Source of the DNA: Desulfovibrio sp. UCD-KL4C
GTDB lineage: Bacteria; Desulfobacterota; Desulfovibrionia; Desulfovibrionales; Desulfovibrionaceae
DNA length: 64,000 bases
Direction of reading: 5' to 3'
Assembly (NCBI RefSeq): GCF_006210265.1
Contig: NZ_VCNC01000001.1
Location: 816,843-880,842, forward strand
Below are positions 48,599-55,063 of the stretch, piece after piece. Made by a program: the position numbers and the translations under genes. The notes under the pieces were generated by a model, which was given only the letters and a program-made list of their open reading frames with translations, made no database searches and was not told the DNA's origin. The stretch's first letter is position 1; each line of letters begins with the position of its first letter.

Positions 48599-49483
48599 TT
48601 AATCTACATCGGGAACTAGTTTACAGACATAGCTTACTAGAATGTCGAATATATTTTTATTGCGATTATTAAACCTGAATTCAAGTTCTTTAAGATAGAG
48701 AGGGAATCTGTGCGGAGAGATTCCTTTGTATCGTTTGAATCTATCGCGAGCGAATCCCCAAAATTCCCCACCGGATCTTTCAATTTCCGGAGTCACATCA
48801 GGGTATTTACGAATATAATCAAGTGGCAGAGAATCATCGCCGCAAAGAATGAGTGCGTTGTATTTTTGATATCTGTCTGTATGGATGATACTTCCATGAC
48901 GCACTAGTTTAAGATGGAAATTGTGGTTGAAGTGAAAAACTGACTCAGCTGTAATGTTTTGCATGAGGTCAATAAATACCCAGCCGTTTTTTTCGAGTAC
49001 TCCGAATACAGGTATTGGCCCTGAACCTGTTTTAGAGGGAACCCCTGTAAGTTTTCGATTTTTTAAATGTTTATGAAGTCCTGTTTCAGGACCGAGTAGC
49101 TGAACAGCATCAATTGCCTGCGCCAAAATTGAAAATCTAAGGGAGGACACAGCCTTGTAGGCAGCGTTATAAGAAATTTCTAGATCTTGAGAAATTGAGT
49201 GAGCTGTGTTGTCGTCTGCAAAAAGTCGGATGAGCCGTATCCATTCAGTGTAGGACAATCCTCCGTTATTAATCCATCTTCCACTGAAATCCTGAAATGT
49301 ATATTTGCATGAAGCACAGCGATAGCGGTTGCCGTTTAACACATAGAGTTTGTTTTCTCTGCAGCGTGGGCAAAAAGTTTTTCGTCCGCCAAAACAGTTC
49401 GTAATAAGAAATTTTTTAGCATCTTCTTCGGAAGAGATTAGCTTTTCAAATTGTTCAGTGCCGTCATCTAAATGTCTTCCCAT
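48599..49483 (-). CDS. ISXO2/IS1595-like transposase homologue, apparently domesticated
   Basis: The ATG at 49483 gives 294 residues and lies 5 bp after the moaA stop; a GTG at 49522 would overlap moaA by 34 bp. A zinc ribbon (FCPRCRENKLY...YRCASC) and HTH region precede an ISXO2-like DDE domain with VFGVLEKNGWVFIDLMQ, HTDRYQKYN, GGEFWGFARDRFKRYKGI and the family end LKELEFRFNNR. Where active IS1595 enzymes have V-E-x-D-E-x-Y, this protein reads VQLLGPETG, so the first catalytic Asp seems lost. It is full length, uninterrupted, and no terminal repeats flank it. It is the last gene of the fdhE-moaA operon. Function is unknown. Confidence 0.82.
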   Translation of the reverse strand: MGRHLDDGTEQFEKLISSEEDAKKFLITNCFGGRKTFCPRCRENKLYVLNGNRYRCASCKYTFQDFSGRWINNGGLSYTEWIRLIRLFADDNTAHSISQDLEISYNAAYKAVSSLRFSILAQAIDAVQLLGPETGLHKHLKNRKLTGVPSKTGSGPIPVFGVLEKNGWVFIDLMQNITAESVFHFNHNFHLKLVRHGSIIHTDRYQKYNALILCGDDSLPLDYIRKYPDVTPEIERSGGEFWGFARDRFKRYKGISPHRFPLYLKELEFRFNNRNKNIFDILVSYVCKLVPDVD

Positions 49484-49488
49484 GCCGA

Positions 49489-50484
49489 CTAACCGCCGAT
49501 GGCTGACATCTGTGTTTCGCACACGCCGTTATTTTCTCGCCTAGTTTGTAAAAGATTATATCCTAAAGGTTTATCGTGTGTTGCCGCAACAAGTACACGT
49601 TTTACAGTTTTATCGGATAATTTGGGGTTTCTAAGTATTTCGCGAAGCCTGTATGTTTTGTCGGAGAATAGGCATGTTCTGAGATGCCCGTCAGAAGTAA
49701 TGCGGAGTCTGTTGCATGTTCCGCAAAAATGAGAGCTGACTGGAGAGATGACCCCTAAGCGGCCTTTTCCATTTTGAATGGAAAAGATTTTGGCCGGACC
49801 GTGGCTTTCTGCAGTTCTTTGAACCGGACTTAAAATGACAAACTGACTTGCTTGTTGAATAATCTCTTCAGCGCTCCAGAATCGCTCGCTGGACCATCTT
49901 GTATCTTCGCCCATTGGCATGAATTCTATAAATCGCAAGTCTACTGGATTTTCTTTTGCAAATTTCAAAAAGGATTTCAGTTCGTGATCGTTAATTCCTT
50001 TCATTGCTACTGCATTTATTTTAACTCGTATTCCGGCTGAAAGGCAGGCTGAAATAGAATTCATCACAGCATTTAAATAATCATATCCTGTTATTTCTTG
50101 GAATGTTCCGCTATTAAGAGTATCTAGAGAAATATTTAATCTGCTGATACCTATTTTTTTAAGGTCGTTTATATATGGTTCAATCAGAGTACCATTGGTG
50201 GTAATACGCAGATCCATATTAGCATGATGTTGAGTAACAGCTGCAACAAAATCCATGAAACCGCGGCGGACAAACGGTTCACCGCCAGTTAGTCTTAACT
50301 TTGAAATATTAAGAGTTGCGGCTAAATTCACAAGTCTGAGCATCTCTTCATATCTAAGAATATTGGGGTGCGGGGTGAAGGTGAAGTCTTTGGTCATGCA
50401 ATATTTGCATCTTAAGTTACATCTGTCAGTTACGCTGAGTCTAAGGTAGCTGATACTTCTTCCAAGTTTATCGGTAAGTGTCAT
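49489..50484 (-). CDS. moaA: GTP 3',8-cyclase, molybdenum cofactor biosynthesis
   Basis: This 331-residue radical-SAM enzyme carries out the first step of molybdopterin synthesis. The start at 50484, 1 nt after the fdhE stop and preceded by GGGGA, is preferred over a longer start inside fdhE. The N-terminal Fe-S cysteines are 22, 26 and 29 (CNLRCKYC). The C-terminal cluster has [18 protein letters not shown]. The protein ends in Gly-Gly, as required for MoaA activity. It lies between fdhE and the transposase homologue, linking Moco supply to formate dehydrogenase assembly. Confidence 0.96.
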
Positions 50485-50485
50485 G

Positions 50486-51433
50486 TTAAAATCCCCATGC
50501 TGATAATGTTCCGCGATTGTATCCTTCTTCAACAGCTAAGAAATCAAGTGATAGTGATTCAAGATCGTCAAGTGTCGGAATAGATACTTTGTCCATTTCT
50601 CTGAAATCTATGGTTTTAATGTAATTCTTGCAATTATTGCATACTTCAACTCGATATCCTGGTTCACCTTCAACAGTGAAAAATTTAATTTCTTTAGAAT
50701 CGGCTTCGTCACAGTAGGCACAAGCCAGTCGGCGCACTCGGTACTCAGTGTGGCAAAATGAGCAGTTTGCGTACCTGAATCCCTGTTTGTGGCGCAGAGT
50801 GTGGATAAAAGGAATACTGCCGCACACAGGGCAACTCCCATGCTGTCTGGCTGGTGGAGGGCTGACTTCGATTTCGAGATCAACGCTGGTCGGTGTTTGA
50901 ACTTCAGTTTTTTCTATCTCAGGCAGATAGACGGCAATGGCCCTTGCTATAACTTTTATTGATGGAGTTATTGCTGATTGAACAAGAAAATTTAAAGTGC
51001 GCGGAGCTTCTGGAGTCTTTTCTCCCCATTTGAGAAAGAAGGCATCATCACCTTCAAGGTATGCGGAAAATACTTTTTTAAGGTCTAGTTCCCCATTTTC
51101 AATTTCGTTGGAAACTAATTTTGTTGCTTCTGAAATGGGACCTGAAAAATCTAAAAGCATGTCGGAAAATGTTGAGAATAACTTGACAGACTGTTCGTAG
51201 TCATAAGGAAAATCAGCTCTGGTTAGTAGCGGGCGTCCTTGAATATTTTCATCAGCAGGAGCCAGAGAAGTTTGGTTCGGAATACTTAGAGCAGTATGTT
51301 GCTCTGCTTCGAGTTGGATTTTTGCAACTTTTGAAATGAGTTCAACAAGTTCTGTCGGAAGAAATTTTTTTTTGCCTAACTCTTTAATCTTTTTATCTAA
51401 CTGAAGCTGTGCCTTGTTAAAATCAAAAGTCAT
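50486..51433 (-). CDS. fdhE: Formate dehydrogenase accessory protein FdhE
   Basis: This 315-residue rubredoxin-like iron-binding assembly factor for formate dehydrogenases has four zinc/iron-type cysteine pairs in its C-terminal half: [20 protein letters not shown] and CNNCKNY. The N-terminal helical domain spans about 1-170. It is the first gene of the fdhE-moaA-transposase-like operon. fdhD and the tungstate transporter lie just upstream. Confidence 0.95.
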
Positions 51434-51738
51434 AATTTTCTCCCGATCATTACTGAATTTGAAGTCATAAATTTATTTTAATTATTACGCTTGATTTTGC
51501 ACTAATGGGGTAAGCCTTCTGAAAAAAAGGTGCATGATTGTATCAATTGCTTTCGCTTTAGCACTAACGTTTAACTCTTTTGATCTCTCCGTCAACATCA
51601 ATGTCATTAAATTTGTAATAAAGAAGTTTGGTGCTTTGTTTTAGGGATAGGCTTGTAAAAAAAATAAAGCATATCAAAAGCAATTATGCCTTGAATGGCA
51701 TAATTAAATATAGATGAAAAAAATGTCAGACTAATGAG
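51434..51738. other. fdhD-fdhE intergenic region
   Basis: This 305-bp gap holds the probable fdhD terminator (51682-51705) and should contain the fdhE promoter. No coding frame or recognisable Moco riboswitch was seen. Confidence 0.45.
51682..51705 (-). terminator. Possible fdhD terminator
   Basis: A perfect inverted repeat AATTATGCC/GGCATAATT with a 6-nt loop lies 34 bp past the fdhD stop. On the minus strand it is followed by a mixed T-rich stretch rather than a clean run. Confidence 0.5.
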
Positions 51739-52809: not shown

Positions 52810-53637
52810 ATGAAAAAGATTAATGTAATATTTATGACTTTTGCACTTGTTGCAATGCTGGTTTCACCAGGATTAGTAAAAGCGGAAGAAATTTTAATGA
52901 TGGCGACCACTACCAGTACCGATAATACAGGGCTCCTTGATGAGATTGCTCCTAAGTTTCAGAAAGATACCGGCATTGAACTGCGCTGGACAGCTGTTGG
53001 AACTGGTAAAGCTTTAAAAATGGGTGAGAATTGTGATGTTGATGTGCTTTTAGTTCATGCTCCTGCTGCTGAGCAGAAATATGTTGATTCAGGTGCGCTT
53101 AAAGATCGCAAAGAAGTTATGTATAATGATTTCGTAATCATTGGGCCTGCTTCTGATCCAGCAGGTGTTAAAGGAATGTCTGTTGTTGATGCTATGAAGA
53201 CTATCGCTGCTAAAAAAGCTGTCTTTGTAAGTCGCGGTGATAATTCCGGTACCAACAAAAAGGAAATTTCTCTTTGGAAAGTCGCGGGTATGACTGTTCC
53301 TGATAAAGACGCTTGGTATGTTCAGACAGGTCAGGGTATGATCAAAAGTATCAACATTGCTGAAGAACGTGATGGATATACAATGACTGACCGTGGCACT
53401 TACATTAAGTACGAAGCTAACAAGAATGGTTCTCCTGACCTGAAAGTTTTGGTTGAAGGTGATAAGACCTTATTTAATCAGTACAGTGTTCTTGCCGTAA
53501 ACCCTGAAAAATGCGAAAAAGCTAAATATAAACTTGCAACTAAATTTTCTGATTGGCTAACTTCCCCTAAAGTCCAGAAAGATATTGCAGACTTCAAACT
53601 TCTCGGTAAAAAACTATTCATTCCTAATGCAAAATAG
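52810..53637 (+). CDS. tupA: Tungstate ABC transporter substrate-binding protein
   Basis: This 275-residue periplasmic protein has a signal peptide ending LVKAEE (about residue 26). The TupA oxyanion-binding motif TTTSTDNTGLLD opens the mature protein, and TAVGTGKALKMGENCDVDVLLVHA and VSRGDNSGTNKKE are further family signatures. It binds tungstate with very high affinity. The ribosome-binding site is GGAGGG. It is the first gene of tupABC, and is probably expressed to feed W-formate dehydrogenases. Confidence 0.97.
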   Translation: MKKINVIFMTFALVAMLVSPGLVKAEEILMMATTTSTDNTGLLDEIAPKFQKDTGIELRWTAVGTGKALKMGENCDVDVLLVHAPAAEQKYVDSGALKDRKEVMYNDFVIIGPASDPAGVKGMSVVDAMKTIAAKKAVFVSRGDNSGTNKKEISLWKVAGMTVPDKDAWYVQTGQGMIKSINIAEERDGYTMTDRGTYIKYEANKNGSPDLKVLVEGDKTLFNQYSVLAVNPEKCEKAKYKLATKFSDWLTSPKVQKDIADFKLLGKKLFIPNAK

Positions 53638-53711
53638 TTTTAAGTTGTCTCTATAATGTTGAAATGGAGGGGATGCATCTGCGTCCCTTTTTTTTATACA
53701 AGGGAAAGTAT

Positions 53712-54407
53712 ATGGATTTTATCGCAACTGGCTTTTTTCAGGCATTCGTCTTGCTTTTTAGCGGTGATCCTGAGACTTATTCAGCCATATTAGCTACCAT
53801 CTCTGTCTCGACTATTTCTATTTTAGCAAGCCTGATAATCGGCGCTCCGCTTGGATTTTTGCTTGGCTATCATGATTTTTCCGGAAAGAAATTTTTACGC
53901 ACTGTAGCTGATTCACTGCTTTCTTTTCCAACTGTAGTTATAGGACTTCTGGTTTATGCTCTACTTTCTCGTAAGGGACCATTAGGAGATACTGAACTGC
54001 TTTTTACTATTCCAGGTATTGCCGTCGGTCAGGCTCTTTTAGGTATCCCCATTGTGACTGCAATGATGGCTACAGCAGTTGAAAATCTTGATCAGCGACT
54101 AAAAAATACATTGTTGACTCTTGGAGCCGGACGCAGCCAAATTTTGCGTACAACTCTGTGGGAAGCTCGCTACAGTCTAGTACTTGCCGTTGCAGCTGCA
54201 TATGGCAGAATTGTCTCTGAAATAGGTATTTCAATGATGATCGGTGGAAATATTAAATGGCATACAAGAACCATAACAACTGCAATTGCTTTAGAAACAG
54301 GCAAAGGAGAATTTGCAATGGGGATTGCGCTCGGCCTTGTCTTAATGATTATTGCCTTTGGTGTTAATTTTTCCATGTCCGGTATTAAAAAGAGGGCTGG
54401 TAAGTGA
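53712..54407 (+). CDS. tupB: Tungstate ABC transporter permease
   Basis: The ATG at 53712 follows AAGGGA and gives 231 residues, the family length. There are five or six membrane helices. The ABC-permease EAA-type loop is in NTLLTLGAGRSQILRTTLWEARYSLV, and the family segment AAAYGRIVSEIGISMMIGGNI is clear. It overlaps tupC by 4 bp (GTGA). Confidence 0.96.
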   Translation: MDFIATGFFQAFVLLFSGDPETYSAILATISVSTISILASLIIGAPLGFLLGYHDFSGKKFLRTVADSLLSFPTVVIGLLVYALLSRKGPLGDTELLFTIPGIAVGQALLGIPIVTAMMATAVENLDQRLKNTLLTLGAGRSQILRTTLWEARYSLVLAVAAAYGRIVSEIGISMMIGGNIKWHTRTITTAIALETGKGEFAMGIALGLVLMIIAFGVNFSMSGIKKRAGK

Positions 54408-55063
54408 GCAATATTTTGTACAAACTTTCTAATATAACCCAAAGTTATAGTGGTAAGACTGTTCTTGAGCTTGATGAATTTATCGTTCCCAAAGGGGCGA
54501 TAGTCGGTCTAGCAGGGCATAACGGAAGTGGCAAAAGCACCCTTATGCGAATTCTGGCATTTCTTGAAAGTCCTGTGTCGGGGGAGGTCTTTTTTGATGG
54601 TAGGAAAATTGAAACTATGGAAACCTCACTTCGCCGCGAAGTAACACTGCTTACTCAGGAGCCTTATCTCTTAAAAAGAACTGTTGCGGGTAACGTTGCC
54701 TATGGTCTTGAGCTTAGGGGAGAAAGTAATATTGATAGTAAGGTTCGCGAGTCTTTAAATCTTGTCGGTCTTGATCCTGATTCGTTTATGCCTCGTCAAT
54801 GGTTTGAACTTTCCGGCGGAGAAGCTCAACGGGTTGCTCTTGCAGCACGGCTTGCTTTTAACCCAAAGGTATTGCTACTTGATGAGCCTACAGCCAGTTT
54901 AGATCGTGAAAGTACCCTGTTGATTCATGATGCAGCTGTAAAGGTTCGTGAAAAATGCGGGGCAACACTTGTAATTGTCAGCCATGATTATCTGTGGCTT
55001 GAAGATGTTTCCGATAATATTATCAACTTCTCACAGGGACAAGTTGAATCTTATTCTAATTAA
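54404..55063 (+). CDS. tupC: Tungstate ABC transporter ATP-binding protein
   Basis: This 219-residue ATPase starts at a GTG that overlaps the tupB stop. Walker A is GHNGSGKS (residues 38-46), the Q-loop is TLLTQEPYLLK, the signature LSGGE is at 136-140, Walker B LLLDEP ends near 162, and the H-loop is VIVSHD. It powers tungstate import with TupA and TupB. Confidence 0.96.
   Translation: MSNILYKLSNITQSYSGKTVLELDEFIVPKGAIVGLAGHNGSGKSTLMRILAFLESPVSGEVFFDGRKIETMETSLRREVTLLTQEPYLLKRTVAGNVAYGLELRGESNIDSKVRESLNLVGLDPDSFMPRQWFELSGGEAQRVALAARLAFNPKVLLLDEPTASLDRESTLLIHDAAVKVREKCGATLVIVSHDYLWLEDVSDNIINFSQGQVESYSN

Follow-up and report, generated by a model that had tools for sequence, protein, structure and literature searches.

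TunR and TaoR are regulators of tungstate/molybdate genes in Desulfovibrio, and their DNA-binding domains resemble mobile-element proteins. Mobile-element proteins also serve as transcription factors in eukaryotes, and the TldR proteins of bacteria descend from TnpB. TldRs are described as TnpB-related, RNA-guided transcription factors, a bacterial mobile-element protein family that has become a transcription factor (PMC13418256). Here, we report a gene related to the transposases of IS1595 (ISXO2-like) insertion sequences in a stretch of 64,000 nucleotides from Desulfovibrio sp. UCD-KL4C (the whole of which is called the window); it is closely associated with formate dehydrogenase (FDH) genes. 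From sequence comparison, the product is likely a domesticated transposase; its operators would derive from transposon ends, and its targets would be its own operon and, in several genera, fdhAB. Briefly, an IS1595-type transposase would have been domesticated in an ancestor of Desulfovibrionales to become a transcriptional regulator of FDH genes. Its zinc ribbon and helix-turn-helix (HTH), which the alignment shows to be kept from mobile relatives, may still recognize transposon ends; the catalytic tetrad is lost in the window protein and its genus. The putative operators in promoters would descend from, or mimic, the 24-bp transposon ends, allowing autoregulation of the fdhE-moaA-tnp operon (tnp, the window gene) and possibly control of the adjacent fdhAB operon in several genera. 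Repression is the likelier sign, with low confidence, and metal supply may be sensed there by another protein, as a palindrome of tungsten/molybdenum (W/Mo) type in this promoter would suggest.

TldR is RNA-guided, whereas the window protein is DDE-type (named after Asp-Asp-Glu catalysis) and presumably relies on protein-DNA recognition. TunR and TaoR share the same regulon theme; we set the window protein apart from them by description, theirs being integrase- or excisionase-like and ours IS1595. Mobile-element-derived transcription factors are already known, and a DDE-type, FDH-linked case is a variant of that theme. A literature search, with most subscription papers outside its coverage, found no report of an IS1595/ISXO2-derived FDH regulator. 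If true, this would be a bacterial DDE transposase turned transcription factor that can be viewed side by side with its mobile relatives, along with the resemblance between its operators and transposon ends. It would also be a candidate regulator for sulfate-reducer Mo/W FDHs, enzymes that attract interest for CO2 reduction; we know of no direct regulator behind the metal-dependent expression of those FDHs.

The gene and the parts of its product are as follows.

48599..49483, minus strand: domesticated IS1595/ISXO2-like protein gene, 294 amino acids (aa), from open reading frame (ORF), Pfam and alignment
Residues ~18–62: zinc ribbon (domain annotation)
Residues ~77–121: HTH (helices in the structure model)
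Residues ~141–272: RNase H-like domain without the catalytic tetrad

The reading frame runs from an ATG at 49483 to 48599 with no internal stop and begins 5 bp after the moaA stop (49489), so the intact ISXO2/IS1595-like ORF described in the initial annotation was found as stated, except that the range given there, 48599–50484, comprises the gene and moaA together. Pfam at E ≤ 0.01 finds two IS1595 families alone, i.e., Zn_ribbon_IS1595 (PF12760, 36.6 bits, cut-off 25.4) and DDE_Tnp_IS1595 (PF12762, ISXO2-like, 73.5 bits, cut-off 27); the NCBIfam IS1595 model gives 42.8 bits, under its cut-off of 75. At E ≤ 0.001, PF12762 has one match in the whole 3.9-Mb genome, the window gene itself. The ribbon cysteines C38, C41, C56, and C59 are invariant in alignments of 28 and 52 rows, and the HTH helices appear in the model, in agreement with the earlier statement that both parts are kept. 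The predicted structure has a mean local confidence (pLDDT) of 88.5 and a global score (pTM) of 0.88, with confidence lower at 141–160. Foldseek with this model returned no matches at E ≤ 0.001, and a VIA fold search against the PDB gave rows at Z ≤ 3.5, many of them HTH parts of regulators. Sequence-search matches in the PDB (antibody and ribosomal rows; best E 4.8e-05, an antibody chain) were judged chance.

The likeness to IS1595 insertion sequences lies in the domain order, the PF12760 plus PF12762 pair, 35–43% identity to mobile-type relatives, and promoter sites related to their 24-bp ends; the window gene differs from them in having no element ends, a single copy, a lost tetrad, and a fixed place in operons. 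Mobile-type homologues were found in Syntrophaceae, Desulfobacterales, Zixibacteria, Fraserbacteria, Acidobacteria, and other assemblies, and they keep the motifs (L/M/V/I)DE.YFGG, YTDKF or YTDRF/Y, and INGLEGFW...K. Elements with both ends readable measure 897–910 bp, mostly 898, and their 24-bp ends have GGTAATT at the tip and TGGCACC inside, the right end overlapping the last codons. Of 12 elements evaluated by script for an 8-bp target duplication, five have an exact one (L134, L146, L160, L163, and L164), and in six others 3–6 positions differ; for L147, whose element length was mis-set by the script, the duplication was judged exact by eye. Eleven of the 17 mobile relatives lie ≤400 bp from a contig end; repeats often lie near contig ends. 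Homologues with terminal repeats, some with target duplications, thus exist, and the initial annotation had counted close, multicopy homologues of this kind at varied sites against co-option, but they stand outside the operon family and keep their catalytic residues. In the window, the 12 best hits obtained with the mobile-end matrix (described below) all lie elsewhere than at the gene ends, consistent with the earlier report of no inverted repeats there.

At the four catalytic columns of the full alignment, the window protein has H137, D203, E235, and R246. The 21 mobile rows (17 intact-motif relatives and four ribbon-less) have D or E at the first column, with a D within two residues in all 21, followed by D (one N), N, and K. 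This D-D-N-K tetrad occurs in 0 of 103 Desulfovibrionales family rows, which include six loci twice. The claimed loss of the first catalytic Asp holds for the window protein, although the aligned residue is H137 (TGLHKHL), just after the VQLLGPETG stretch to which the loss had been assigned; please note that the alignment is loose around this position. The second Asp is kept as claimed (D203), but the third acidic motif is not simply kept, E235 and R246 standing where mobile relatives have N and K. An Asp at the first column, whose conservation had been named as contrary evidence, is present in 24/103 family rows but absent from the window protein and the five other own-genus rows in this alignment. 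D-D-acid is found in 21/103 family rows, with K in eight. D125 (AIDA) was rejected as the first catalytic Asp; it is invariant in alignment A2, nine mobile relatives included, and is probably structural because it is invariant among mobile relatives also. We consider the window lineage very probably inactive in catalysis, as judged from these residues.

These data bear on the simplest alternative, namely that the gene is an ordinary insertion sequence, recently inserted or active in trans. In its favor, a Pfam transposase domain is present, and acids occupy all three aligned positions in 24 of the 103 family rows. The single copy, the fixed place in 15 of 15 gene-bearing congeners, the missing ends, a ratio of nonsynonymous to synonymous substitution rates (dN/dS) below 0.06, and the His in place of the first catalytic Asp argue against it and make it very improbable.

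End-like sites upstream of fdhE form one line of evidence for regulation by the domesticated protein. A mobile-end matrix was built from 28 ends of 15 mobile elements, leaving out L161 and L169, which are cut by contig ends. A second, family matrix was trained on 21 fdhE-upstream sites, so that its scores there are circular and the mobile-end matrix is the independent test. Within 350 bp upstream of fdhE, the mobile-end matrix gave hits at p ≤ 0.02 against shuffles in 30/44 loci; the controls gave 2/34 upstream of moaA and 3/23 upstream of tupA, the tupA hits falling in a stretch common to fdhE in divergent clusters. At ≥8 bits, sites were found upstream of fdhE in 29/44 loci versus 0/325 other gene-upstream regions of the same loci; removal of four duplicate contigs left 26/40 distinct loci versus 0/294 controls, and grouping by 85% protein identity left 12/18 clusters. 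The strongest site is L111:2927, in a Pseudodesulfovibrio. Twenty-two of the 29 sites are free of any ORF ≥100 aa, and six of the other seven overlap opposite-strand ORFs alone. The family consensus nGTGCCAAAnCnTGAGTAAnTnnC and the mobile-end consensus GGTGCCAAAACnTGAnTAATTACC have a correlation of 0.83, unmatched in 10,000 column permutations, a descriptive value since the sites had been picked with the mobile matrix. In the window itself, two putative operators related to terminal inverted repeats (TIR) lie upstream of fdhE.

51542..51565, minus strand: TIR-like operator candidate 1, upstream of fdhE, family matrix 20.2 bits
51480..51503, minus strand: TIR-like operator candidate 2, a direct repeat of candidate 1, family matrix 11.0 bits, sixth-best in the window; weak

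Candidate 1 is the best family-matrix hit of the 64-kb window and a conserved non-coding block in the congener alignment. When the genus pattern was searched in the own genome with ≤3 mismatches, candidate 1 was the sole exact match and two others had 2 and 3 mismatches; a pattern match upstream of a glycerol facilitator/kinase-like pair (gene names by eye) was judged chance.

It is conceivable that such sites are passive relics of the ends from the original insertion, without present function. Similar sequence indeed persists at the gene 3' end (e.g., L035, L074, and L149), where the old right end overlaps the coding sequence, and for this overlap the sites at the 3' end (also in L032, L075, L142, and others) were set aside. 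The fdhE sites, however, are found in several genera at −76 to −257 of fdhE, at a distance from the gene itself, and the site is among the conserved non-coding blocks of the congener alignment; the relic explanation is unlikely, with a slim chance in our estimate.

Sites were also found where the gene lies next to fdhA. In 49 loci, the gene and fdhA share a strand, with the gene 107–906 bp upstream; at one further locus (L117) the distance is 4.8 kb, for which reason L117 was left out of the gap tests. In the gene-to-fdhA gaps, the family matrix at ≥12 bits gave 21/49, 15 of them clear of the palindrome, versus 6/286 controls, and the mobile matrix at ≥6 bits gave 12/49 versus 6/286. In L117, the gene and the distant fdhA are each preceded by one site. 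In five distinct Desulfomicrobium-type loci (L067 = L135, L068, L069, L137, and L138), the gene is preceded by an inverted pair of sites spaced 112–113 bp apart. The W/Mo-type palindrome lies between the two sites, as an exact copy in L068 and L137 and an imperfect one in the remaining loci. Hits at −464 upstream of own-genus unlinked fdhA were rejected, being, by our reading of the alignment, inside the coding end of the preceding gene in 6/7 aligned congeners; hits at −783, −817, and −824 in three other own-genus fdhA upstream regions look alike and were not used. Outside the own genus, the gene is often located before fdhAB; with its TGA taken as selenocysteine, one such fdhA (L032) scores 1420.9 bits with TIGR01553 (cut-off 814.2).

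A conserved small ORF (~70–130 aa as called) is located between the gene and fdhA, with the motifs LPFxGLGxDL and GYxLLVxLGREIRGR (L098:9094-9348, L130:1286-1528, and L121:8970-9188, for example). The motifs are present in 32/49 gene-to-fdhA gaps and were not found in Solidesulfovibrio-type gaps; the three examples have no Pfam family matches, and inspection by eye suggests that the counterpart upstream of fdhA in the own genome (L197) is interrupted.

The association with FDH extends over the order. We sampled 58 genomes of it, own genome included. Matches at E ≤ 0.001 occur in 42/58, and a non-mobile family member, by our reading of the table, in 40/58, the G019 match being a fragment and that of G032 a ribbon-less element. 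FDH alpha (TIGR01553 above cut-off) is present in 49/58. Forty genomes have both family and FDH, nine have FDH alone, nine have neither, and none has the family without FDH (Fisher p 4.6e-6, uncorrected for relatedness). At the locus level, we used the best 80 of 204 loci, from named assemblies, with flanks of up to 8 kb per side. The non-mobile family accounts for 62 of the 80, and FdhA, FdhE, FdhD, or MoaA is present in the flanks of 56 of them, consistent with the gene staying by FDH genes across Desulfovibrionales; the six without a marker gene are L103, L104, L107, L133, L154, and L165, of which contig ends cut L103, L104, and L133. Near the other 18 loci (17 intact-motif loci and L176), no FDH markers were found. 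Among 16 congeners, 15 have the gene, the exception (G009) being 84% complete; moaA directly precedes it in 15/15, with fdhE before moaA in 14, and the order tupCBA, fdhD, (fdhE), moaA, gene is kept in these 15, G002 being without fdhE there.

In a quick tree of 127 rows, from which 11 near-identical congener rows had been removed beforehand, the non-mobile rows form one clade of 103 (approximate likelihood-ratio support, SH-aLRT, 99). A careful tree that kept 67 of the 127 rows also groups all non-mobile rows (48 rows, support 89/94); without the hcp/nrf-linked branch, which is sister to the rest, 44 rows group with support 99/95. Hitch-hiking in a conserved cluster, i.e., an FDH association with no functional link, was considered here, as close genomes share gene order generally and relatedness inflates the counts. 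The make-up of the cluster varies while the FDH link persists (fdhE-moaA-tnp; fdhE-tnp; tnp before fdhAB; paralogues with FDH2 and FdhE2; the displaced fdhA of L117), and we give hitch-hiking hardly any chance.

The window gene is under strong purifying selection, with dN/dS of 0.020–0.057 (NG86 method; five congener pairs with dS < 1). In the same pairs, the values are 0.068–0.099 for moaA, 0.066–0.140 for fdhE, 0.027–0.084 for fdhD, and 0.039–0.056 for tupA. Strongest constraint is at residues 158–232, in the RNase H-like domain. This last point favors another possibility, that the domesticated protein acts in FDH maturation, as a partner of FdhE or MoaA, rather than on DNA, the end-like sites being those of another regulator or chance. 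The constant partner in the own genus is likewise the accessory operon, not fdhAB, and paralogues adjoin a second FdhE. The invariant ribbon cysteines speak against such a role, as do the mobile-end-like sites before fdhE in 26 of the 40 distinct loci and in none of 294 controls, and we regard it as rather unlikely. The chaperone-like partner of FDH maturation proposed in the initial annotation found no direct support; a chaperone role is possible, without specific support. Its broader proposal of a co-opted, FDH-linked protein that is no longer mobile is supported by the single copy, the order-wide FDH linkage, the strong purifying selection, the lost catalytic tetrad, and the end-like sites in FDH promoters.

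Several observations weigh against regulation of FDH genes by a domesticated, end-binding protein. With the mobile-end matrix, candidate 1 of the window scores 0.8 bits (p=0.139), which is weak. The region upstream of fdhE scores <8 bits in 14/40 distinct loci, all six Solidesulfovibrio-type loci among them, and in a wider control, over upstream regions of the 62 family loci, 4/286 score ≥8 bits with this matrix. Upstream of unlinked fdhA in the own genus, a strong hit occurs in 1/16 genomes (L204, possibly coding) and no convincing site in 15/16; where the gene has no marker gene preceding it, a site lies upstream of it in 8/37, and the topA-, hcp-, and FDH2-linked paralogue loci have no convincing promoter sites. 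FDH is present without the family gene in 9/58 genomes, the family member of L141 has an internal stop in frame, and the strongest constraint is not in the DNA-binding part. Catalytic loss for every family member is too strong a claim, because 24/103 rows keep acids at all three positions. Related species, finally, are not independent as counts.

The neighbors of the window gene and the palindrome are listed below.

49489..50484, minus strand: moaA (GTP 3',8-cyclase), directly upstream of the transposase-like gene; TIGR02666 377 bits, cut-off 284
50486..51433, minus strand: fdhE-like gene (FDH accessory protein), first gene after the operator region; PF24859 and PF24860 above cut-off
51684..51703, no strand: palindrome TTATGYY-N6-RRCATAA, the single site in the own genome
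51739..52530, minus strand: fdhD; PF02634 222 bits, TIGR00129 above cut-off
52810..55063, plus strand: tupABC-like ABC transporter genes, divergent from fdhD; ORFs and Pfam

The fdhE-like gene scores 80.5 bits with TIGR01562, under the cut-off of 187.65, and the tupABC-like transporter is one we take to be for tungstate. A 305-bp gap separates the fdhE-like gene from fdhD, and all four genes (fdhD, fdhE-like, moaA, and the window gene) have the same direction. The terminator claimed after the gene is seen as a hairpin with a T-run 3' of the stop (folding z = −2.69), but a consensus terminator scan, whose allowed loop is shorter, did not list it.

The palindrome, which was also scored as a terminator-like hairpin, was rejected as the window protein's own operator: it is also found in two genomes without the protein (G022 and G023), and elsewhere it was seen upstream of aldehyde oxidoreductase and FmdE/FDH2 genes and in the vicinity of a TupC-like gene. 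A general W/Mo regulator, rather than the window protein, probably binds it. Between FmdE-like and FDH2 genes, L236:5769-6188 encodes a LysR/ModE-type HTH protein of 139 aa, a candidate owner of the palindrome. These ModE/LysR-type proteins resemble the window protein in that they are encoded in an operon with the genes in question, FmdE and FDH2; they differ from it in HTH type and are possibly linked with TTATGYY-N6-RRCATAA.

A wider picture may be drawn, tentatively and with considerable doubt, in which the exapted IS1595 family of Desulfovibrionales would comprise operon-specific regulators of anaerobic metabolism (FDH; FDH2 plus FmdE; hcp plus nrfHA; topA neighbors) with transposon-end-derived operators, in some lineages as 112–113-bp inverted pairs, as if a synapse had become a repression loop, and in which a ribbon-less lineage (L087/L088) would have entered the FDH/tungstate neighborhood independently.

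Paralogues in L045, L049, and L082 follow hcp (Prismane), with L051 and L081 nearby in the tree, and those of L049 and L082 precede genes for nrfH-nrfA type cytochromes. Another paralogue branch (L038, L040, L041, L042, L173, and L175) adjoins a second FdhE and FDH, and in L040–L042, L173, and L175 an FmdE-MoCF_biosynth protein is also beside the paralogue. In Desulfohalobiaceae-type genomes, a family branch follows topA (L033 and L165). The ribbon-less, diverged IS1595-like proteins of L087:6244-6909 and L088:6454-7224 are located by fdhD/FDH genes and a TupA-like gene; Pfam finds HTH families alone in them, their branches in the tree are long, and they possibly represent an independent domestication. 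Other ribbon-less IS1595 proteins, with motifs intact, are present in some Desulfovibrionaceae genomes (L083, L084, L085, and L086), and the matched stretch of the L084 copy (G024:C3) contains two internal TAG codons.

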